A stretch of 64,000 bases of DNA from Sphingopyxis sp. PAMC25046 (GTDB lineage Bacteria > Pseudomonadota > Alphaproteobacteria > Sphingomonadales > Sphingomonadaceae): assembly GCF_004795895.1 (NCBI RefSeq), contig NZ_CP039250.1, positions 1,116,001-1,180,000 of the forward strand, given 5' to 3'. This document shows, in pieces, positions 41,511 through 63,852 of the stretch. Each line of letters starts with the position of its first letter. The first letter of the stretch is position 1. The position numbers and the translations under genes were made by a program. The notes under the pieces are model-generated. The model did no database searches and was not told the origin of the DNA. It saw only the letters and a program-made list of their open reading frames with translations.

Positions 41511-41597
41511 GCCCAGATGGCGGAATTGGTAGACGCACCAGCTTCAGGTGCTGGCGATCGCAAGGTCGTGGAGGTTCGAGTCCTCTTCTGGGCACCA
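41511..41597 (+). tRNA. tRNA-Leu, anticodon CAG
   Basis: The 87-base gene has the acceptor stem GCCCAGA/TCTGGGC, the anticodon stem CCAGC/GCTGG with loop TTCAGGT (anticodon CAG, reading CUG), a long variable arm as in leucine tRNAs, a TTCGAGT T-loop, discriminator A and an encoded CCA at 41595-41597. It is followed directly by the island integrase region, so its 3' half is the likely attachment site. Confidence 0.93.
41573..41597 (+). other. Candidate left attachment site (tRNA 3' end)
   Basis: P4-type integrases recombine at the 3' end of tRNA genes. The T-arm through CCA is the expected core, re-created on integration. The matching right copy is not in the window, so the exact borders are inferred. 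Confidence 0.4.
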
Positions 41598-41699: not shown

Positions 41700-41771
41700 A
41701 CCATCAGCGTACCATCAGCTTTGATGGTGTTTTTGATGGTTTCGGTCAGCCTATCGAAGGTGAAACCATCA
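41700..41771. repeat. Five ACCATCA motifs before the integrase
   Basis: The 7-mer ACCATCA occurs at 41700, 41711 and 41765 on the plus strand and as TGATGGT at 41722 and 41734, five copies in 72 bases, the last overlapping the integrase ATG. The arrangement is like arm-type integrase or excisionase binding sites. It could also let the integrase repress its own promoter. Confidence 0.6.
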
Positions 41772-43006
41772 TGTCGCTTACCCACATCCAGATTTCGAAC
41801 GCTAAGCCCAAGGAAAAAGCCTATAAAATGGCTGACGCCGACGCCCTGTACCTTGTGGTCAGGCCGAGCGGCGCAAAAGTCTGGCGAATGAACTATCGCT
41901 ATCTCGATCGGCAAAAGACGCTGTATTTCGGGTCGTGGCCCGATGTCGGCATCGCGTCCGCTCGCGAATTGCGTGATGAGGCACGCAAGAAGCTCATCGC
42001 CGGGCTTGATCCCGCAGCGGAGAAGAAGGTCGCGCGGATCACCCAGAAGATCGCGCAGGACAATACGTTCAAGGCGATCGCCGAGGAATGGCTGGTGAAA
42101 ATCGAACGAGAAGATCGCGCGCCAGTCACGCTTCGGAAGGTGCGATGGCTCCTCGACATCGCCGAACCGATGATCGGCAGTCGCCCGATATCGAAACTCA
42201 CCGCGCAGGAAATCCTGGCCGTTCTCCGTAAAGTCGAGGCGAATGGCCGATATGAAAGCGCGCGGCGCATGCGGAGCGTGATTAGCAGAGTGTTCCGCTA
42301 CGCCATTGCGACGGCCAGGGCTGATCGCGATCTCGCGGCCGATCTCCGCGGGGCGCTGATCACTCCGAAGGTGAAGCACCACGCCGCCATCACGGCCCCG
42401 AAGGAAGTCGGCGCGCTACTCCGCGCTATCGATGGCTACACTGGCCACGAACTCACCGCGGTGGCGCTTCGATTGACACCGCATCTTTTCGTCAGACCGG
42501 GAGAACTGCGTCAGGCAGAATGGGCGGAGATTGATCCCGATGATGCCGTCTGGTCGATCCCGGCAGAGAAAATGAAAATGCGCCGCTCGCTTTGCGTCCC
42601 CCTGTCACGGCAAGTTCTTGCGATGCTCGAAGAGCTTCACGCCCTTACCGGCCATGGGAAATACCTCTTCCCTTCCTTTCGGACGCCCCACCGTTGCATG
42701 TCGGAGAACACTGTCAGCGCTGCGCTTCGGCGGCTGGGCTACAGCCGTGAAGAGATGACGGCCCATGGATTCCGCGCGACGGCCGCCACTCTCCTCAACC
42801 AGATGGGAATGTGGCACCCGGATGCGATCGAAAGGCAACTGGCACATCTCGATGCCAATGCGACCCGCCGGGTCTACACCCGCGGCGAATATTGGGATGA
42901 ACGTGTTCGCATGATGCAGCATTGGTCCGATTATCTCGACGAGCTGCAGGGCGGTGCGCAAATTCTCCGCCCTGCCTTCGGGATGAGTGCAACATCGACC
43001 GCTTAG
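41771..43006 (+). CDS. P4-type tyrosine site-specific integrase
   Basis: The 411-residue recombinase has the N-terminal DUF4102 arm-binding domain (about 1-95), a SAM-like core-binding domain (about 97-190) and the catalytic domain with R242 (FVRPGELRQAEW), H332-x-x-R335 (AHGFRATAATLL), H359 and nucleophile Y369 (RRVYTRGEYW). All catalytic residues are present, so it is probably active. It sits 174 bases from the tRNA-Leu 3' end and converges with the excisionase-like gene, overlapping it by four bases. Confidence 0.95.
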   Translation: MSLTHIQISNAKPKEKAYKMADADALYLVVRPSGAKVWRMNYRYLDRQKTLYFGSWPDVGIASARELRDEARKKLIAGLDPAAEKKVARITQKIAQDNTFKAIAEEWLVKIEREDRAPVTLRKVRWLLDIAEPMIGSRPISKLTAQEILAVLRKVEANGRYESARRMRSVISRVFRYAIATARADRDLAADLRGALITPKVKHHAAITAPKEVGALLRAIDGYTGHELTAVALRLTPHLFVRPGELRQAEWAEIDPDDAVWSIPAEKMKMRRSLCVPLSRQVLAMLEELHALTGHGKYLFPSFRTPHRCMSENTVSAALRRLGYSREEMTAHGFRATAATLLNQMGMWHPDAIERQLAHLDANATRRVYTRGEYWDERVRMMQHWSDYLDELQGGAQILRPAFGMSATSTA

Positions 43007-55760: not shown

Positions 55761-56237
55761 ATGACGGTCATCGGACATAATCAAATCCGGAAAGTCGAGA
55801 ACTTCGACCGATATGAGATTCTAGCGCACCCGCTTCCCCATCGAGAAGACCGCGTTTTCTATCCGGTGGAGCCCGATGGCTTTGGGGCGGTGACCTATGC
55901 TTCGCACGACGTCATGATCGCGAGGCCGACCGGCGTCGGGAGCAAGGGCCGGCTCGCCATATTGATGCACCATGGCGGCGGCCGCTACGTCCTCGAATTC
56001 TACGAAAGCACCCTGCCGATCGCCTCGTCGCTGCTCGCGCTTCCGGAACGTGAACAATATGCGCTCGCCTATACGATCTTTGCGCAAGCGGACGAATGCT
56101 CCGCCGGATCGCGCGCCGCGGAGGCGAAACGATGGGCAGAGGCCTATGTCGACGGCCGCATCCGGAAGCGGCGACGCGGGCGCGCGCGGCATATATATGT
56201 CGAAACCGTGGCCGAGAAGGCACTTCGCGTCGCCTGA
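55761..56237 (+). CDS. Hypothetical island protein, 158 residues
   Basis: The protein begins MTVIGHNQIRKVENFDRYEI and ends in a strongly basic helix (about 133-145, RIRKRRRGRAR), which suggests nucleic-acid contact. No family is recognised. The ribosome site AGAAAGATCC is weak. It lies 75 bases after the preceding gene. Confidence 0.6.
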   Translation: MTVIGHNQIRKVENFDRYEILAHPLPHREDRVFYPVEPDGFGAVTYASHDVMIARPTGVGSKGRLAILMHHGGGRYVLEFYESTLPIASSLLALPEREQYALAYTIFAQADECSAGSRAAEAKRWAEAYVDGRIRKRRRGRARHIYVETVAEKALRVA

Positions 56238-56285
56238 ATCTTAAGCTGCCCACGCCCAAACGCTCGCCACCAATCGTCACCGCTC

Positions 56286-56307
56286 GGGAGGAAAGGGAGC
56301 ATGGGCG
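56286..56307 (+). repeat. G-rich leader element, copy 6
   Basis: GGGAGGAAAGGGAGCATGGG lies 40 bases before the GHKL ATPase ATG. It is the most degenerate of the six copies. Confidence 0.45.
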
Positions 56308-56347
56308 TGCGGCGGCGATGAGGCTGCCGCGTAACCGGAGTATTCCC

Positions 56348-58033
56348 ATGACGCTTCCCGCTCAAATCCGCCCGTCCGTCGGCGAGCAACTCATCACCAA
56401 GGTGTCGCGCCTGTTCAACGGGACGATCACCGACGTTCTCAACGAACTCTTCCAGAATGCCCGCCGTGCGGGTGCGCAGCGTATCGACGTCGACCTCGGC
56501 GAGCATGAAGGCAAGCCGGCCCTCTTCATTGCCGACGACGGCGTTGGCATCGACGATCCCGCCGCGTTCGTGACCCTTGGCCGCTCCGGCTGGAGCGACC
56601 AGATCGCACGGCGGGAAGACCCCGCCGGAATGGGTGTGTTCAGCCTCGCCGGCAAGCGCGTGACCGTGCGATCCTTCTCGAGAGCCGCCGATGTCGGATG
56701 GACGGTCACCATCCCCGAAGACGGCTGGCAGGGAGAACAGCCGCTGACCGTCGAAACCTCCGAGATCCGAAGGGGAACGCAGCTGGTCATTGCCATGTCC
56801 GCCGAATGGCTGCCCAATCTCCAGTCGCAGATCGAAGCTACGGCGAAGCATTTTCCGCTGCCAGTCCGTTTTCAGGGCGCGGCCTTGCCACGCGAGGATT
56901 TCCTCAAGGACGCCTGCCGGATCGAAGAGTGGCGTGGCTGCCGGATCGGAATCTTCAGCGATTCCTATGACATCCCGAGCGACCCACGCCTCAATTTTCA
57001 TGGCGTCAAGGTTCCCTGCCGGATGCCCGCCATCGGGGAAATCGAAGCACGGCGGAAATGGACGGTTCGGGTCGATATCGTCGACGCGCCCTCGCTCCAG
57101 CTCGTTTTACCCGCGCGCAAGGAGATGGTCGAGAATGCCGCACTCGCCGATCTGCGGGTTGAAGTGCAGGCAGCCATTTACCGGGCCATTGCGCTCAACG
57201 GCGAACACCGCCTGTCGTTCAAGGACTGGCAGCGCGCCACCGAGCTCGGCGTTGGCCTTCCCGAAGCCAGTCCGTGGCTCTGTGCATGGCGCCCGCGAAC
57301 AGCAGATGGCAATGCATATGTCGAGGACGAGCGCGTCGAAGTTGCCTCGATGATCCTGATCCCCAGGCACGAGGCCGATGTCGAACAATGCGCGGCGAAG
57401 GTGTTGACCGAGGAGAAGCTCGGCTTCCGACCTGTCTTCGCTGAAGACAAGTTCTCCGGCTATCGACGGTATGACGAGCTTCCGCGCGTCCCGGGCCTTT
57501 CCTTTACGATCGAAAGGCAGGGCGAACTGTTCCACTATGCGGACGATGACGTTGTTTTCGACCATGTTGAATCGGGCGGGGTGACTGCGATTACCCTCAA
57601 TATCCCGATCGTTCGCTGCGCCGAGTTCGACGAACCCGTCGCGATCCTGAGCCTTCCCGTCGATATGCTCGTCTGCGCGAACGCAAGCAGCCATGTCGAT
57701 GAAGCGCATATTTTTGTCCAGGAGGGGGCAATCGTCACGCCGCAGGCGCTCGCGCAGCTGATCGAGGATGCGGTCTTCGCTTACGACGAGGATTGCGACA
57801 GCGACAGCTGGGGCAGGCAGCATGACGATTTCATCCGCGATGCGCGCCACTTCGCCAACAAGCTCCTCCTGGGAAAGGAAGAGGCTCTTCTCGAACAGAT
57901 CCGATCGGCTTTCCGCGACGATGTCCAATGGCTGATCCCCGAGGGATTGACCCTCACCCTGGAGGCCGATGTCGGCAAGGCTCAAATCGCTCTGGCTGCC
58001 ACGGATCCAGAAGCAGGACCCACCGCTGCATAG
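56348..58033 (+). CDS. GHKL-fold ATPase (Hsp90/MutL-like N-domain)
   Basis: The 561-residue protein has the Bergerat ATP-binding fold: N-box ITDVLNELFQNARRAGAQRI (E33, N37), G1 box ADDGVGIDD (D64) and G2 box DPAGMGVFSLAG. The rest has no assigned domain, although a strand-rich middle region and an acidic helical C-terminus are seen. Histidine kinase phospho-acceptor and MutL metal sites are absent. Standalone GHKL ATPases in plasmids and defence islands often act with unknown partners. The ATG follows CGGAGTATTCCC. Confidence 0.75.
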   Translation: MTLPAQIRPSVGEQLITKVSRLFNGTITDVLNELFQNARRAGAQRIDVDLGEHEGKPALFIADDGVGIDDPAAFVTLGRSGWSDQIARREDPAGMGVFSLAGKRVTVRSFSRAADVGWTVTIPEDGWQGEQPLTVETSEIRRGTQLVIAMSAEWLPNLQSQIEATAKHFPLPVRFQGAALPREDFLKDACRIEEWRGCRIGIFSDSYDIPSDPRLNFHGVKVPCRMPAIGEIEARRKWTVRVDIVDAPSLQLVLPARKEMVENAALADLRVEVQAAIYRAIALNGEHRLSFKDWQRATELGVGLPEASPWLCAWRPRTADGNAYVEDERVEVASMILIPRHEADVEQCAAKVLTEEKLGFRPVFAEDKFSGYRRYDELPRVPGLSFTIERQGELFHYADDDVVFDHVESGGVTAITLNIPIVRCAEFDEPVAILSLPVDMLVCANASSHVDEAHIFVQEGAIVTPQALAQLIEDAVFAYDEDCDSDSWGRQHDDFIRDARHFANKLLLGKEEALLEQIRSAFRDDVQWLIPEGLTLTLEADVGKAQIALAATDPEAGPTAA

Positions 58034-58292: not shown

Positions 58293-58519
58293 AGCGGCCA
58301 TTTCCTGATCATACATCTGGCGGAGGTACCACCTATTTCAGGTCAGCGACGTTACGGGAGGCATGTCGCTCCGTCAAATTCCTAAGCCAAGCGTCCAGAC
58401 GTCGAGCTTCGAAGGAATTTGGTCGGGAATGCGCCTCATCTCGGCCGTTGCGATGGACACCGAAGATGGCCTGAAAGCAGACGCGGAACCTCCCGGGGAT
58501 GCCTATGCGTTCGCACCCA
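58293..58519. other. Gap before the ubiquitin-like operon 3' end
   Basis: A plus-strand frame at 58363 has a ribosome site too close to its ATG and runs into the DUF6527-like gene on the other strand. I see no supported gene and no clear terminator. Confidence 0.35.
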
Positions 58520-58924
58520 TCAGCGGCGACCGAAGAACCCGACGATCAATTCGATCCACCCGTTGATCTTTTGCCACCAAGACATGCTCTGGTAGGCTTT
58601 GAGATCTTTTCGGCGGACTGCGTCGATCTCTGCCGGCGAGAAGAGCCGAGCCCAGCGAATTCGACCGTTGGTGAGGATGTAGTGAGATTTGCACTCCAAG
58701 TTCCAGTTTCCCACCGATGGAAACAGGGAAGGTCGCTCGTCGGTACCGGTCAACTCCCACTCGATTTCGTTGAGCGGGGTTATCACGCGATGGCCGCATC
58801 CACACGCGCAGAGGTGGTGCGCGCGTGTGCGCTGCGGGTTGACGTACAGAACTCCCGCCTCGAGATTCTGTGGGATCGGCCCGCACGCGACCGTGAAGGC
58901 CTCGCGACGCTCAGCTTGATTCAC
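58520..58924 (-). CDS. DUF6527-like Cys/His-rich protein of a ubiquitin-like operon
   Basis: From the GTG at 58924 (overlapping the upstream E1-like gene by 14 bases) the protein has 134 residues. It carries a cluster CACGCGHR (C39, C41, C43), the block RPSLFPSVGNWNLECKSHYI with C78 and H81, and a C-terminal Trp-rich helix near 115-130 that may touch membrane. The layout matches the DUF6527 family found with multiubiquitin and ThiF genes. The Cys/His set could bind zinc; whether it is a ligase, a protease or a deconjugase is not known to me. The open frame upstream of 58924 is a shadow of the E1 gene. Confidence 0.7.
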   Translation of the reverse strand: MNQAERREAFTVACGPIPQNLEAGVLYVNPQRTRAHHLCACGCGHRVITPLNEIEWELTGTDERPSLFPSVGNWNLECKSHYILTNGRIRWARLFSPAEIDAVRRKDLKAYQSMSWWQKINGWIELIVGFFGRR

Positions 58925-60098
58925 GGTCGAGCTGCATGGTGGAAATGTTGAATGTCGCCTGATAGGTGGAATGGCCCCCAGCGTAGTATCCGCGGTACTT
59001 TTTGTACATGAAGACGGCCATGGCAGCGTTAAAGGCATTAAGTTCGACAGTCTGGATGTTCTTCTGGTACTCATCCGGGATATCTATCAGGTCGTCCCCG
59101 ATCATCTCCGCTATTGCGGCAGGCGAGCTCGCCGCGTCGAGCAGGGTCGTATCGACCAACCCGGTGAGCCCAGGATTGCCGTGGTGTAGTCCCATTCCGA
59201 CTATGACAACAGGAATGTCGCGAGCGAGGAGCAGCTTCACAATATTTCTGCGAGCTGCAATCTTGTCGACGGCGATGAAGGCAAAGGTAATACCTTCGAG
59301 CAAATTTTCCGACGTAGCATCGAGGCGTTCCTCGAACGCCTTCACGCCGTTATGCCACCCGGCATAACGCTGCTCAATCACCCGAACCTTCGGCTGACCT
59401 AGTTCCTCCCTGATGGTTGCTCCGGGAATGCGGAAGGCGTTGTGGATGTCGAGCTCATCGAAATCGTAAAGGTGAATTGCTTTGACTCGCGTCTTCGAAA
59501 TCAAGTCGAAGATATATGATCCGGTACCGCCGGCGCCGATGATTGCGACGGCGTCCTCGGAAATGCGTTTGTCGAGTTCGCTCAGATTTGCCCGGGCCGA
59601 ATTCATGTCGTCGAAGGGGAATGGGCATTCAGCTGGCCTCTCACCGATCGAAACGAAAGGCGTCGCGTTGAACTTCGGATGCTTCGCCTCGGCCGGTCCA
59701 GCTACGTAGGCGGCATATTCGGTGAACTTCTCGTGGAGGCTGACGTACTCGCGCTTGGCCCCATTGGCGTCGAGCGGCTTCCACGACCAGTAGAAGGTTG
59801 ACGATTTCCCATCGAACAACGGCGATGCGGTCGCGCCGTTTCCGCTGAACAATATGCGTCCTTCATGATCGTAGGGCTGGTCGCCAATGAAATACATCTG
59901 GTGGTTCATCGGCAGGGTCCGTGCCCGGTGATCCGCGTCCAGGTTGAGGGTGTCGACCATCAGCCCGGTACGCGGATCACCAGCCGCGTCGAGATACGGC
60001 ACCGGCATGACCAGATAAGGGCCGCGCCTGTAGAGCGCATATCCCTCATCGAGGAGCTGCTGGATGCTGCCATCTTCGGAAGGCGGAAGCTTATCCAA
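58911..60098 (-). CDS. ThiF/E1-like adenylyltransferase with extra N-terminal domain
   Basis: The 395-residue protein has an unassigned N-terminal domain (about 1-180; E2-like or DUF6791-type is possible) and a ThiF-fold adenylation domain with the ATP loop AIIGAGGTGSYIFDLI (residues 185-200), acidic strand end YDFDELDIHN, and the RRNIVKLLLARDIPVVIVGM core. E1 proteins adenylate a ubiquitin-like C-terminus and usually take it onto a Cys, but only one Cys is present (C158, in the N-terminal part), so the usual thioester Cys in the C-terminal half is absent. The start is TTG at 60098, 18 bases after the ubiquitin-like gene. Confidence 0.8.
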   Translation of the reverse strand: MDKLPPSEDGSIQQLLDEGYALYRRGPYLVMPVPYLDAAGDPRTGLMVDTLNLDADHRARTLPMNHQMYFIGDQPYDHEGRILFSGNGATASPLFDGKSSTFYWSWKPLDANGAKREYVSLHEKFTEYAAYVAGPAEAKHPKFNATPFVSIGERPAECPFPFDDMNSARANLSELDKRISEDAVAIIGAGGTGSYIFDLISKTRVKAIHLYDFDELDIHNAFRIPGATIREELGQPKVRVIEQRYAGWHNGVKAFEERLDATSENLLEGITFAFIAVDKIAARRNIVKLLLARDIPVVIVGMGLHHGNPGLTGLVDTTLLDAASSPAAIAEMIGDDLIDIPDEYQKNIQTVELNAFNAAMAVFMYKKYRGYYAGGHSTYQATFNISTMQLDRESS

Positions 60099-60116
60099 TT
60101 TGTCCCGTCCTCTCTA

Positions 60117-60386
60117 TTAGGATTGGCCGGTGCCGGTCACGGTAAAGTCCATGCCCTCGACGACCTGGACCGAGCCGCCCGGCTTGAGCTTGCCGGATGC
60201 GTTCCCGTGACCGCGGTCATACGAAATGCGATATCCGTCCGCAGGATTGGCGCCATCGCCGAACGCCAACTTCACCAGCTGGTCGAACGAGATCTTGCCC
60301 TTGGGCACGGAATGAGGCTGGTCATTAACGACGATATCGACCGTCTTCGGTCCCTTGTCGTCCTTGTCTTCTTTGAGGTCACTCAT
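60117..60386 (-). CDS. Multiubiquitin-family ubiquitin-like protein, single domain
   Basis: The 89-residue protein has a charged flexible N-terminus and then one beta-grasp unit: TVDIVVNDQPHSVPKGKISF, FDQLVKLAFGDGANPADGYR, YDRGHGNASGKLKPGGSVQV and VEGMDFTVTGTGQS. This order, including the LxPGxSVxVxEGMxFxV block, is that of the Multi_ubiq domain family. Unlike longer relatives it has a single domain, and it ends in Gly-Gln-Ser, not Gly-Gly. It is the presumed modifier for the E1-like enzyme encoded next. Confidence 0.8.
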   Translation of the reverse strand: MSDLKEDKDDKGPKTVDIVVNDQPHSVPKGKISFDQLVKLAFGDGANPADGYRISYDRGHGNASGKLKPGGSVQVVEGMDFTVTGTGQS

Positions 60387-60421
60387 CTGACTTCCTTTCG
60401 TTCTGAGTTCTTGCCGCCGCT

Positions 60422-60646
60422 TTATCCCTTCGGCGGGAACGGGTCGTTGCCGTAGCTGTCGCGCGCCCTGATCTGTCCGTTTCGGCCGTGGATCAGCAAT
60501 TCGCTGCCTTGGCGCTGCGCCGTGGCCCGAGCGACCTGCGCTGCCTCAGCCTGTGTCGAATGAACGGAAGATGCGCGGCTGTTACCGGCGCCGCGGACGG
60601 CCCAGCCGCTCGCGTGCGGGACAACGTGTTGGTTTTTACCTGCCAT
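60422..60646 (-). CDS. DUF2188-like small protein at the head of the ubiquitin-like operon
   Basis: The 74-residue protein (begins MAGKNQHVVPHASGWAVRGA) has the DUF2188 pattern: V.P...GWAV...G..R.SS.H.TQAEA...AR..A, then ELLIHGRNGQIRARDSYGND. DUF2188 proteins are small, basic and of unknown role. The gene is first in the operon, 35 bases before the ubiquitin-like gene. Confidence 0.8.
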   Translation of the reverse strand: MAGKNQHVVPHASGWAVRGAGNSRASSVHSTQAEAAQVARATAQRQGSELLIHGRNGQIRARDSYGNDPFPPKG

Positions 60647-60678
60647 TGGCTTGGGCCTCTTGTTCTGTTAGTGACGTG

Positions 60679-60698
60679 GCGTTGCGAATCTGCAACGC
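60679..60698. promoter_or_regulatory. Palindromic operator candidate
   Basis: GCGTTGC-GAATCT-GCAACGC is a perfect seven-base inverted repeat in the middle of the 97-base gap between the divergent ubiquitin-like operon and the XRE/ImmA pair. It fits a dimeric XRE-type regulator. Confidence 0.55.
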
Positions 60699-60716
60699 AA
60701 GAGGGAGATCGCAAAT

Positions 60717-60744
60717 GTCGAACGGAATTGCAAGAGTCGAACGG
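60717..60744 (+). promoter_or_regulatory. Direct repeats at the XRE gene start
   Basis: GTCGAACGG occurs at 60717-60725 and 60736-60744, 19 bases apart, the second touching the GTG start of the XRE gene. The spacing, close to two helical turns, suggests a second binding site, possibly for autoregulation. Confidence 0.45.
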
Positions 60745-61094
60745 TGACGGATGTTCATTTTGATGGGGAGAAGTTCGTGGCAGCGCTGGACAGCACGCGG
60801 CGGGCGCGGAACATGACCTGGCGAAAGGTGGCGGATGAGGCGAAAGTCAGCGCCTCAACCTTGACGCGACTGTCTCAGGGTAAACGTCCCGACGTCGATA
60901 GCCTCGGCGCTCTAGTTCACTGGGCCGGTCTCGATACGGACACTTTTTACACCGGGACGGCCGCAGCTACGCCCATCGAACCCCTCGCCAAGGTCACGGC
61001 CTATCTCCGGGCCGATCCTAATCTGAGCGACGAAGGAGCAAAGGCATTGGAAGCCATTCTTCATGCCACCTACGAACAATTTCGAAAGAAATGA
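60744..61094 (+). CDS. XRE-family transcriptional regulator
   Basis: The 116-residue protein starts at GTG and has an XRE HTH at about residues 10-62 (ARNMTWRKVADEAKVSASTL, then TRLSQGKRPDVDSLGALVHW). Its C-terminus is helical. It lies one base before an ImmA/IrrE-like peptidase gene, a common pair in which the peptidase cuts the repressor under stress. It is divergent from the ubiquitin-like operon. Confidence 0.88.
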   Translation: MTDVHFDGEKFVAALDSTRRARNMTWRKVADEAKVSASTLTRLSQGKRPDVDSLGALVHWAGLDTDTFYTGTAAATPIEPLAKVTAYLRADPNLSDEGAKALEAILHATYEQFRKK

Positions 61095-61095
61095 G

Positions 61096-61674
61096 ATGAC
61101 GTTGCGGCGAGGCTTCAAGACCGAAGCGAACAGGACTGCGCGAGAAATTCGCGCAGAGCTGGGCCTCGCCGCCGACGCTCCGCTGTGCCCCTTTTTGACG
61201 GCAAAGCATCTGGAGGTTCTCACCGTAAAGTTGTCCGACTTTCGAGGGCAGCACGGCGACGCGGTCGAGTATCTCATCAGTACGGCGGGACAGACCGAAT
61301 TTTCAGCTATCACAGTCTGCATCGGCAGTGTTCGGGTTATCGTTTACAATGATGGCCATTCGCCCGCGCGCTGCGCCGCCAACATCATGCATGAGCTGGC
61401 TCACATGCTGTTGTTGCACCCGCCGCACCCCTTGTGCGGGGAGACGGGGAAGCGCCATTTCGATGCCGGGCTCGAGGAAGAAGCAAACTGGTTTGGTCCC
61501 GCGCTTTTGGTCTCTGACGAAGCCGCCGTGACTGTGGCGAAGCGGGGGATCACTATAAGGTCTGCGGCAGCTGAGTATGGCGTCAGCACACAACTGATGC
61601 AGATGCGACTAAACGTTACGGGCGCGCAACGGCGCATTTCAAGAGCTGCTCATCTGGTTGCGGCGTTTAGATAA
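61096..61674 (+). CDS. ImmA/IrrE-type zinc metallopeptidase
   Basis: The 192-residue protein has the HExxH zinc site MHELAHMLLLHP (His, Glu, His) and a downstream Glu-rich segment EEEANWFGPALLVSD, matching DUF955/ImmA peptidases. Such proteins cleave XRE repressors. The ATG at 61096 follows AAGAAATGAG immediately after the XRE stop. The C-terminus carries an HTH-like stretch (SAAAEYGVSTQLMQMRLNVT) typical of the family. Confidence 0.85.
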   Translation: MTLRRGFKTEANRTAREIRAELGLAADAPLCPFLTAKHLEVLTVKLSDFRGQHGDAVEYLISTAGQTEFSAITVCIGSVRVIVYNDGHSPARCAANIMHELAHMLLLHPPHPLCGETGKRHFDAGLEEEANWFGPALLVSDEAAVTVAKRGITIRSAAAEYGVSTQLMQMRLNVTGAQRRISRAAHLVAAFR

Positions 61675-61747: not shown

Positions 61748-62317
61748 CTATGGAGGCGAATTCGAGGACGTGATGATGGCATCGACGAAGGCTATGGCGC
61801 GTGCACGATTACCAGAATCAATTTTGAGCAGGGGGATGCTGAGCGCCGATGCGTAAATCTCTCCGAGCTCCCGTAGACGGCGTCGTTGTAGTCGAAGTTC
61901 AGTAAGGTTCCGGCGGGGGCGCTGGCGCTTGTCGAGTGAGCGGCGTTTGAGGACCGCCGTGGCGGGGGCATCCACCAGAATTATTGCTGCGAGGCCTAGC
62001 GACGCCATTACGTTCGTCGGGACATCGACGAGTTCCCGGTCATTGTCGATGAAGGCGTGCGCCTCCAGCAGAACGGGTCTCTCCAATTGCCCGGCGCGCT
62101 CATTGGCTAAAGCACTCGCTAGCTCGAACTGATTGTCCCTGACATGATCGCTCTCGGCGGTGCGGAGTTTCTCACCGGTGGTATGGAATGATCGCCTTAG
62201 CAGGCTGCCGGCGGTCATTCTCAGAATACCGGGGCGTGCACGCACGATCGCTTTCGCCAGATGGCTCTTGCCCGAGCCCGAAAGACCCAGGATCGCGATG
62301 ACGGGCGCGGCATTCAT
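61748..62317 (-). CDS. P-loop NTPase, small kinase-like
   Basis: The 189-residue protein has Walker A at its N-terminus (IAILGLSGSGKSHLAKAI), a lid-like Arg-rich region (KRRSLDKRQRPRRNLTELRL) and VLLEAHAFID in the region of a Walker B strand. The size and layout resemble dephospho-CoA kinase/AAA_33 nucleoside or nucleotide kinases. The ATG overlaps the stop of the PIN-GNAT gene by four bases (ATGA), so they are translationally coupled. Substrate unknown. Confidence 0.75.
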   Translation of the reverse strand: MNAAPVIAILGLSGSGKSHLAKAIVRARPGILRMTAGSLLRRSFHTTGEKLRTAESDHVRDNQFELASALANERAGQLERPVLLEAHAFIDNDRELVDVPTNVMASLGLAAIILVDAPATAVLKRRSLDKRQRPRRNLTELRLQRRRLRELGEIYASALSIPLLKIDSGNRARAIAFVDAIITSSNSPP

Positions 62318-63852
62318 AGCGCAAATCCGAAATTCATCGACGGGAGAAGTTCGGGTAGGCCGGCGCGGTCGATCCGGGTGATCGACTGCGGCGGACCTTT
62401 GAGAACGCCGGTATTGGTCAGCTTTTTGAGGCCGATCGGTGGACTGAGATGACGAATGAGCAGGAAATCGATTACGGCGAGGCCGTTCGGCGACGCGGCG
62501 GCCATCGCCTCCAGATCCTGCCGCGAATAAACTGATCGGCCAGCTGTCAGTCGCAGCAACTCCGCTTCTCCGACCGCACGGCGCAATTGTTCGACCACGC
62601 CGACGGTGGTCAGCATCTGGGAGTTCTGCGCTGCTTCCTCTTTGGACTGATAGAAGAACAGAAGGTCGCCCGCGCGCATGGCCTTGATCTTTGCGCGGCA
62701 GACATAAACTTTTCTGATCGTGTTCCCGGGCACGCGACCGGCTTCGCGGTCGTCGATCGTGTCGTCATTGAACAAAGGGGTCGGAACGAGCTTGGCGACT
62801 TCCGGGAAAAGCTGGCGATGAAATCGCCATTGCACCGGGACCGCGAATAGCGTGACAGGGTTAGCGATGCTGAAACGCGGGTAGCGTGTCCGCACGAGAT
62901 GGGCGGCATCATCTCCTGTTGGAGCGGGTATCGCATCTTTCGGCAAATATTTAGCAAGGATGAGCTCGCCTGTCGAATTCTCGCCATTAGTGACGAACCC
63001 GTATCGGCCGAGAAGATCGATCAGCATCGTCTGCTTGGGAAAAGTCGTAAGGTACAAGGCGTCGAAGCCGTTAAGCTGGGCGTACCAGATCGCCTTACGC
63101 AGAAGAAGTTCGCCTACCTTGTGACCTTGCGCACGCGCGCCGACCTTGAATGTGCATAATTTGAGTATCTTGTCCGATGGAGTGAGGCCGAGTTCGGTCC
63201 CGTCCTCAGCTTTGCGAACAATGAGGCCGTCGAGCAGGCCATCACGGCCTCGAATGACCCAGCAATCGCGATGTTCGACCACGCACTTGGTCCGCCACCA
63301 ATGCACGAACGGTTCGTAATCGGCTCGCAAGCTTTCGAATATAGGATCGGCGAGGTCAACGCTGTACGCGGGCACGTCTGCGACAAATGCTACGCCGTCA
63401 TCGACCGCGTCTTGGAGCGCCTTGAGCCAAGCCACCGCGTCAGCGATCGTGAGGACACGTTCTTCCAATGGCGTGCCTCGCACGCGCTTATGGATACCCT
63501 CATCCTGAGAAATCAAAATGTCGATGGCATCGAGTGACAGGGCATAAAGAAGCTGGACGTCGACGCGATCATTCTCGTTCTTGATCGGTCCGAACTGCTG
63601 TTCGAGTAGTTCCCAGCCGCGAATGGCGATTAAAGCGAGCCACGGATATTTTTCCATCCGAGACGCCGAAACCAGCCGACGGACTTCGTTTCGATCGCGC
63701 GCGAAATCGTCTCTCATCGCCGGATGAATATGGAGCGAGATGCCGCCTGCCTGACAACGTCGCGACAATTCGGCGGCAACGGGTCCGGTTTGCCCAGGAT
63801 CCTCGAGGGCGATCAGCACATTCGTATCGATCAGGGCCCTAGTCTTGCTCAT
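62314..63852 (-). CDS. PIN-GNAT-PUA/EVE-like three-domain fusion protein
   Basis: The 512-residue protein has a PIN-like nuclease domain (about 1-145) with acidic residues D9 (ALIDTNVLIALEDPG), D95/D98 and D117 (ILISQDEGIHKR). A GNAT acetyltransferase-like domain follows (about 190-305; acetyl-CoA loop VGARAQGHKVGELLLRKAI). The C-terminal domain (about 330-512) has KVYVCRAKIKAMRAGDLLFF and TVGVVEQL, a PUA/EVE/ASCH-like fold. The first two domains could cut and modify RNA or tRNA, and the third could recognise modified bases. The combined architecture is unusual and reads like a conflict-system effector. Confidence 0.75.
   Translation of the reverse strand: MSKTRALIDTNVLIALEDPGQTGPVAAELSRRCQAGGISLHIHPAMRDDFARDRNEVRRLVSASRMEKYPWLALIAIRGWELLEQQFGPIKNENDRVDVQLLYALSLDAIDILISQDEGIHKRVRGTPLEERVLTIADAVAWLKALQDAVDDGVAFVADVPAYSVDLADPIFESLRADYEPFVHWWRTKCVVEHRDCWVIRGRDGLLDGLIVRKAEDGTELGLTPSDKILKLCTFKVGARAQGHKVGELLLRKAIWYAQLNGFDALYLTTFPKQTMLIDLLGRYGFVTNGENSTGELILAKYLPKDAIPAPTGDDAAHLVRTRYPRFSIANPVTLFAVPVQWRFHRQLFPEVAKLVPTPLFNDDTIDDREAGRVPGNTIRKVYVCRAKIKAMRAGDLLFFYQSKEEAAQNSQMLTTVGVVEQLRRAVGEAELLRLTAGRSVYSRQDLEAMAAASPNGLAVIDFLLIRHLSPPIGLKKLTNTGVLKGPPQSITRIDRAGLPELLPSMNFGFAL

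Follow-up and report, generated by a model that had tools for sequence, protein, structure and literature searches.

Genes of the locus

We analyzed a 64,000-nucleotide stretch of Sphingopyxis sp. PAMC25046 (hereafter the window; C1:1116001-1180000 of genome G000, a single contig of 4,497,392 bases), which carries a compact ubiquitin-like (Ubl) operon and, divergent from it, a pair of putative regulatory genes. An inspection of the letters alone (the sequence-only reading) had placed four tightly packed minus-strand genes at about 58520-60646 and assigned them to the DUF2188, Multi_ubiq, ThiF and DUF6527 families. The four open reading frames (ORFs) are present there, and all four assignments were confirmed by Pfam matches, each above its curated cut-off. 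The divergent XRE and M78 pair at 60744-61674 and the palindrome at 60679-60698 had been overlooked. The features are as follows.

58520..58924, minus strand: DUF6527 protein, 134 amino acids (aa); Pfam PF20137, 6.4e-23; motif CxCGC...PS...CxSHY; belongs to the family that closes Bub operons as their last gene
58911..60098, minus strand: E1-like adenylyltransferase, DUF6791-ThiF, 395 aa; PF20590, 1.1e-22, and PF00899, 1.5e-16
60117..60386, minus strand: single-domain Ubl (Multi_ubiq), 89 aa, tail ...VTGTGQS; PF14452, 3.5e-12, one matched stretch
60422..60646, minus strand: DUF2188 protein, 74 aa; PF09954, 5.6e-26; PADLOC candidate PDC-S16, 2.1e-39
60679..60698, no strand: probable operator palindrome GCGTTGC-N6-GCAACGC, perfect 7+7, between the divergent genes
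60708..60744, no strand: two 18-nucleotide direct repeats, 83% alike, a possible second control element, between the divergent genes
60744..61094, plus strand: XRE-type repressor (CapH/RmrA-like), 116 aa; weak Pfam helix-turn-helix (HTH) matches, the best 1.1e-4 and under cut-off; PADLOC RmrA, 2e-4
61063..61674, plus strand: ImmA/IrrE-type M78 peptidase (CapP/RmrA-like), 203 aa; PF06114, 9.9e-15; HELAH zinc motif seen in the sequence

The DUF2188 and Ubl genes are separated by 35 nucleotides and the Ubl and E1 genes by 18. For the DUF6527 gene, GTG 58924 is the most probable start, as the related protein P0125 (92% identical, 134 aa) begins there; with this start it overlaps the E1 gene by 14 nucleotides. 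The longer ORF from 59074 is a mechanical ORF call. In the E1-like protein, the DUF6791 match spans residues 12-164, no JAB domain was found by Pfam at E 1, and the nearest NCBIfam models (PRK06153) scored below their curated cut-offs. The genome as a whole gave one Multi_ubiq match and no match to Prok-E2_E.

Homology to related loci breaks behind DUF2188

Two relatives align with complementary parts of the locus. On a Sphingomonas insulae plasmid (L086), the DNA matching window positions 60422-61640 is 77% identical and covers the M78 and XRE genes, the operator and DUF2188, with protein identities of 87% (XRE), 82% (M78) and 89% (DUF2188); both copies of the 18-nucleotide repeat are recognizable in the alignment. 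This homology stops at the DUF2188 stop codon, behind which stands a TIR gene with a ThsB match of 7.2e-98. Conversely, locus L058, in which the Ubl core follows a different switch, matches window positions 58507-60363 with 76% DNA identity (E1 82%, Ubl 80% identical), while the window XRE and M78 proteins find no match there and its DUF2188 is only 54% identical. Since the two homologies end there, a break between modules can be placed at ~60364-60421, from the start of the Ubl gene to the DUF2188 stop codon.

The generality of this arrangement was examined in a survey set defined by DUF6791, a domain carried by 28 of the 396 genomes searched in the order and by 8 of a phylum-wide sample of 398 (G000 and G004 being common to both samples), giving 34 genomes with 35 E1 loci. 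DUF6791 and Multi_ubiq gave zero matches in 14 control genomes, in which M78 was found in seven, DUF2188 in two and DUF6527 in one. Gene order was searched at 30 loci, 29 of them distinct as L001 equals L055. DUF2188 lies between the switch and the Ubl gene at only three of the 30, namely the window, L053 (49% identical) and L058; at L039, a same-strand DUF2188 lies ~1 kb beyond DUF6527, and the other 26 loci gave no DUF2188 hit. Across the 34 genomes, six of the 18 DUF2188 matches lie 580-720 bases from an opposite-strand M78 gene, where 0.02 would be expected within 1 kb under random placement, an expectation that clustering in defence islands would raise. No Ubl operon lies within 6 kb of three of these six pairs, and the remaining 12 DUF2188 matches have no M78 within 3 kb.

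DUF2188 was also found in 452 plasmid records, 341 of them from Klebsiella. Eighteen contexts were examined from the best 40 of these 452 matches, which are not a random sample: 16 of the 18 non-enteric records listed (all but H67 and H70), one Escherichia coli record and one Klebsiella record. H81 is unannotated, leaving 17. Behind DUF2188 stand a phospholipase or patatin gene with a nucleotidyltransferase gene, of the cyclic oligonucleotide-based antiphage signaling system (CBASS) type, in eight contexts, TIR genes in two and other genes in seven; H66, H68, H69 and H71 carry one and the same DUF2188 accession, so that these four contexts are not independent. The CBASS payloads (phospholipase and CD-NTase) occur in roseobacters and Mesorhizobium, and in H69, the one context tested with PADLOC, phospholipase and cyclase effectors were matched. 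A divergent DNA-binding regulator, either XRE/HTH with or without ImmA/IrrE or of CopG type, adjoins DUF2188 in 16 of the 17 contexts, the Klebsiella record having none. The 'XRE' proteins of H69 (402 aa) and H72 (343 aa) match both RmrA and capP and thus correspond to XRE and M78 joined.

The sequence-only reading had taken DUF2188 for the leader gene of the Ubl operon. This assignment does not look right: DUF2188 keeps company with the XRE-M78 switch, stands before CBASS or TIR genes elsewhere and is followed by a homology break at its stop codon. From sequence comparison it appears to belong with the switch and not with the Ubl operon, and its candidacy as a Ubl-pathway gene was dropped given where the L086 homology ends. 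The neighborhood of DUF2188, Multi_ubiq, ThiF and DUF6527 that the same reading had proposed to look for recurs as to its core, with DUF2188 in front at only three of the 30 loci.

In four of the plasmid contexts a 69-aa hypothetical gene follows DUF2188, at L088:3743-3952, L094:3244-3453, L095:3243-3452 and L100:3230-3439, with no recognized payload; the L088 protein, the one of the four tested, gave no PADLOC match. The window DUF2188 protein matches the phage family phrog_3220 (4.9e-30), of unknown function. Literature searches, judged by title and the start of the abstract, returned nothing relevant on DUF2188 in this context, and the PDC candidate names were not found.

The divergent putative switch and its probable operator

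The XRE and M78 genes resemble the CapH+CapP and RmrA switches in forming a divergent pair beside an immune-type operon. CapH/CapP is a pair reportedly treated by Lau et al. in 2022. The window differs from CapH+CapP in the weak likeness of its proteins and in an extra gene, DUF2188, which is the first behind the promoter region. In PADLOC, the M78 protein matches RmrA at 3.7e-9 and capP at 2.5e-5.

The palindrome between the divergent genes had no match in 100 shuffles. It is found at the matching place in L046 and L086 with one mismatch each. L087 and L081 have versions with three mismatches. A sigma-70 promoter scan was uninformative (2 found, 1.3 expected).

An M78 match lies within 6 kb of 20 of the 35 E1 loci, always upstream, on the opposite strand in 14 and on the same strand in six; random placement of M78 on any strand within 6 kb of E1 would give 0.29, a figure to which the caveat on island clustering applies as well. 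The opposite-strand M78 of G213:C115 lies 5.8 kb from E1. All six same-strand matches lie in open frames of 1129-1156 aa. The one examined, L034:3760-7164, encodes a 1134-aa M78-UvrD helicase-PD-(D/E)XK nuclease protein and lies immediately ahead of the Ubl gene; the other five are at G287, G026, G213:C21, G632 and G580.

Other leaders were also seen. At L046:8750-8872 the operator and the start region are kept, and the first gene is, by eye, a short Ala/Lys-rich ORF instead of DUF2188. At L056:7457-7645, and at the matching place in L057, a 62-aa leader (PADLOC candidate PDC-S38, 1.5e-20) separates a divergent regulator from the Ubl gene, in the position that DUF2188 has in the window.

Distribution of the Ubl-E1-DUF6527 core

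The order Ubl then E1 is kept at all 30 loci searched, and DUF6527, detected with its own profile, then follows E1 at 24, so that a chance association of the core can be set aside. The reading of the locus as a bacterial ubiquitin-like system stands. By Pfam, Multi_ubiq was detected in 30 of the 34 genomes, with exactly one match in 16; diverged domains may be missed in these counts, as a Ubl was picked up by the gene-order search even in the four genomes without a Pfam match. DUF6527 was detected by Pfam in 31 of the 34 genomes, in G362 and G373 away from E1.

Within 6 kb of E1, none of the 35 loci has a match to Prok-E2_E (the one prokaryotic E2 model searched) or, judged by the listed coordinates, to Prok-JAB. 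Prok-E2_E occurs in one of the 34 genomes, on another contig (G317:C65) with a Multi_ubiq and a DUF6527 of its own. In the phylum sample it occurs in eight of 398 genomes (five over the cut-off), none of them among the eight with DUF6791.

Over the genomes and plasmids together, the core recurs in Proteobacteria, Bacteroidota and Actinomycetota. A scan of genome contigs with the single E1 sequence returned one relative, from Tsuneonella rigui (E1 76% identical). Among plasmids, 115 records match E1, all at <60% identity. In all six that were examined, ThiF is followed by DUF6527, and in five an annotated Multi_ubiq gene stands in front of ThiF, the Streptomyces record having none annotated there; the Ubl of Novosphingobium pCAR3, at 83 aa, is likewise roughly a single domain in length. 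The regulators upstream are a divergent ImmA/IrrE gene with a small or HTH gene in three of the six, a divergent WYL gene in Adhaeribacter and a same-strand ImmA/IrrE gene in Streptomyces. A phage-borne origin was rejected, as phage records gave no E1 match at E 1e-5; a scan of viral contigs for E1 gave three relatives among 37 candidate stretches, one of them full length.

Conservation of the Ubl-pathway proteins

The E1 residues G188, G190, G191, G193, D214, R223 and K237 do not vary among the 97 sequences compared. Of the solved structures, the E1 profiles match Citrobacter BubCD (PDB 9ea5) best (9.7e-11 and 2.4e-12), in the ThiF part only, and profile-profile comparison agrees with this (98.4%, again for ThiF only); TcdA, ThiF and MoeB are also among the solved matches. 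DUF6791 was considered as a hidden JAB domain and as a hidden E2, and both were set aside for want of similarity in profile comparisons: hhalign gave 0.2% probability against the JAB region of Citrobacter-type E1s, and the same value against a small E2_E alignment of six rows, of which the L106 row is doubtful and from which L109 had been dropped for a stop.

The Ubl family profile finds PDB 9cd2 at 1.9e-20, a chain that also ends in Ser. The Synechocystis Ubl ends in Gly, and a Ser tail is therefore not common to all such modifiers.

In DUF6527, P18, Y27, C39, C41, G42, C43, P69, S70, C78, H81 and Y82 are invariant over 34 sequences. The residues C39, C41, C43 and C78, together with S70 and H81, would suit a metal site accompanied by a Ser-His pair. 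No significant solved relative was found for DUF6527 or DUF2188, and a literature search did not find DUF6527 together with ubiquitin.

Relation to known ubiquitin-like systems

The accessible part of Iyer et al. 2006 (PMC1779556) lists in row 6e of Table 1 a polyUbl, an inactive E2-like domain, a JAB-E1 protein and a metal-binding protein (protein Y). In some versions of the class the E1 is described as carrying a 'distinct domain' (domain X) where JAB would be, and a solo Ub-like domain is given for one species, for which X is not marked. As far as this part of the paper describes the class, the window resembles it in its Ub-like protein and its E1 with a non-JAB N-terminal domain, and differs in that no inactive E2-like domain was found. 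We infer that domain X is DUF6791 and that protein Y is DUF6527, for which the four invariant Cys and one invariant His make DUF6527 a candidate; the window system would then probably be the domain-X variant of class 6e.

The sequence-only reading had singled out the minimal form of the operon as notable. A single modifier domain without a separate E2 or JAB gene is indeed what was found (one PF14452 stretch, no Prok-E2_E or JAB match), but it is not unusual, being the usual form of the DUF6791 class in our survey, and such operons are already listed in the part of the 2006 paper cited above. A new minimal architecture is thus ruled out by the relatives and by that table, and the operon is one more member of a class listed in 2006, ordinary as an operon.

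The Bub family is named in PMC13373217 and was defined, according to the available sections of that paper, by Gong et al. 2025 and Ye et al. 2026. The same sections report CapW or CapH+CapP in 219 of 544 Bub operons, a set that may not include the DUF6791 type, describe CapH+CapP as a switch of immune operons triggered by single-stranded DNA, and state that phage protection by Bub was not demonstrated. The operons of Citrobacter pOZ181 and Synechocystis pSYSX, taken as Bub from the PDB name BubCD and from these sections, share with the window a Multi_ubiq protein, a ThiF E1 and DUF6527 in one operon with upstream regulators. Both encode Prok-E2_E, and in both the E1 is fused to a JAB domain, whereas in the window neither was found and DUF6791 occupies the place of JAB; because it has neither, the window system is filed as Bub-like and not as such a Bub operon. 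The available part of PMC4963859 reports that the Synechocystis cassette adjoins an XRE-DUF955 pair and that 70% of PF14452 proteins have such neighbors.

A model of the locus and its alternatives

We consider it reasonably probable that the locus joins two adjoining modules, a damage-inducible switch and a Bub-like Ubl pathway, with a likely role in inducible anti-phage defence. In the first module (60422-61674), the palindrome at 60679-60698 would be the element through which the XRE protein represses the divergent promoter region. On a stress signal, of which DNA damage is the most likely given what is published on CapH+CapP, the M78 peptidase would cleave this repressor, and DUF2188 would be the first gene released. 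The second module (58520-60386) would be transcribed behind the switch. Here the ThiF domain would adenylate the Ser-ended C-terminus of the Ubl, which could be handed to its targets with no conserved E1 cysteine taking part; making up for the parts that are missing, DUF6791 would probably bind the target or acceptor, and DUF6527 may trim or remove the Ubl.

About evenly balanced, in our estimate, is the broader proposal that XRE, M78 and DUF2188 form a portable three-gene control cassette, in which DUF2188 would be a shared and hitherto undescribed working part of the immune response and no component of the Ubl, CBASS or TIR systems, the payload would be swapped at the DUF2188 stop codon and the Ubl operon would be an immune payload that modifies its targets with neither a separate E2 nor cysteine chemistry. 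The last part of this proposal derives from the association of the operon with a cassette that precedes TIR and CBASS payloads elsewhere. The same switch, operator and DUF2188 stand before a Ubl operon in one sphingomonad and before a TIR gene in another. Through this swap, E2-less Ubl operons can be tied in a testable way to anti-phage defence, and DUF2188 becomes a candidate for a leader gene common to immune operons.

Several observations weigh against the two-module model. On the side of the switch, the window XRE protein has no capH match at E 0.001, the M78-capP match is weak and RmrA fits better. The operator palindrome is absent, at <=4 mismatches, in six of the 10 relatives scanned, M78 is not matched within 6 kb at 15 of the 35 E1 loci, and the Acinetobacter locus, one of the six from plasmids, has no annotated regulator. 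On the side of the pathway, five of the 35 E1 loci have no DUF6527 match beside E1, a sixth (L033) being cut by the contig end. The E1 has no conserved cysteine, C158 being present in 25 of 97 sequences and the best other column reaching 59 of 97, and the Ubl tail ends in Ser without Gly-Gly (Ser in 28 of 29 rows, Ala in L039).

CBASS Cap2 is an example of bacterial Ubl/E1 chemistry. Bil is another (PMC11354881, in its available part). The window differs from both in that Prok-E2_E, JAB and a conserved E1 cysteine are all missing, and a thioester route like theirs is not supported by the E1 cysteine counts or the Ser tail. The same features, with the lack of a Prok-E2_E match near the 35 loci and the presence of TcdA, ThiF and MoeB among the solved matches, would suit a Ubl that is activated and never conjugated to proteins, acting as an adenylate, as a self-linked signal or polymer, or as a small-molecule or sulfur carrier. 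We regard this as rather unlikely: the best solved match is a Bub E1, and DUF6527 is found with the core just as in the two operons examined that do encode an E2, which suggests a step of Ubl processing or removal.

The XRE-M78 pair could instead be a toxin-antitoxin or maintenance pair that stabilizes a mobile island, with the Ubl operon as cargo of a housekeeping or general stress role. PMC4963859, in the part available, reads XRE-COG2856/DUF955 neighbors as toxin-antitoxin loci that may stabilize the multiubiquitin cassette, and the available sections of PMC13373217 allow that Bub may mediate a global stress response. We hold this alternative to be unlikely, as a switch with the same operator and closely similar proteins precedes the ThsB-like TIR gene and XRE-type switches with DUF2188 precede CBASS genes; because the same switch precedes such genes, a regulator of immune genes explains its position better than a stabilizer does. 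Least credible to us, and quite improbable, is that DUF2188 genuinely belongs to the Ubl pathway, as an adaptor or a target, which the sequence-only reading had implied. Its place between switch and Ubl gene at three loci, and the more distant copy at L039, speak for such a role; the 26 loci without it, the DUF2188-M78 pairs without a Ubl operon, the CBASS and TIR genes behind it on plasmids and the homology break at its stop codon speak against. The two-module model is the one we retain.

Genomic surroundings

Beside the Ubl operon, a 645-aa ORF at 56096-58033 (plus strand) shows a sub-threshold likeness to GHKL ATPases (HATPase_c_3, 0.002). At lower coordinates, a tRNA-Leu gene at 41511-41597 precedes an ORF (41771-43006) with the look, by eye, of a phage-type integrase, and plasmid-like genes come after it, which suggests an integrated element. 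The tRNA was rejected as the attachment site of the island, no second copy of at least 14 bases of its 3' end being present in the 81 kb examined. The region around 61748-63852, at the end of the island, looks like a defence cluster: it holds an AAA_17 kinase-like gene (61748-62317) and a minus-strand gene (62314-63852) for a 512-aa protein that matches PADLOC candidate PDC-M11A at 1.8e-120, with sub-threshold GNAT and EVE hints in Pfam.

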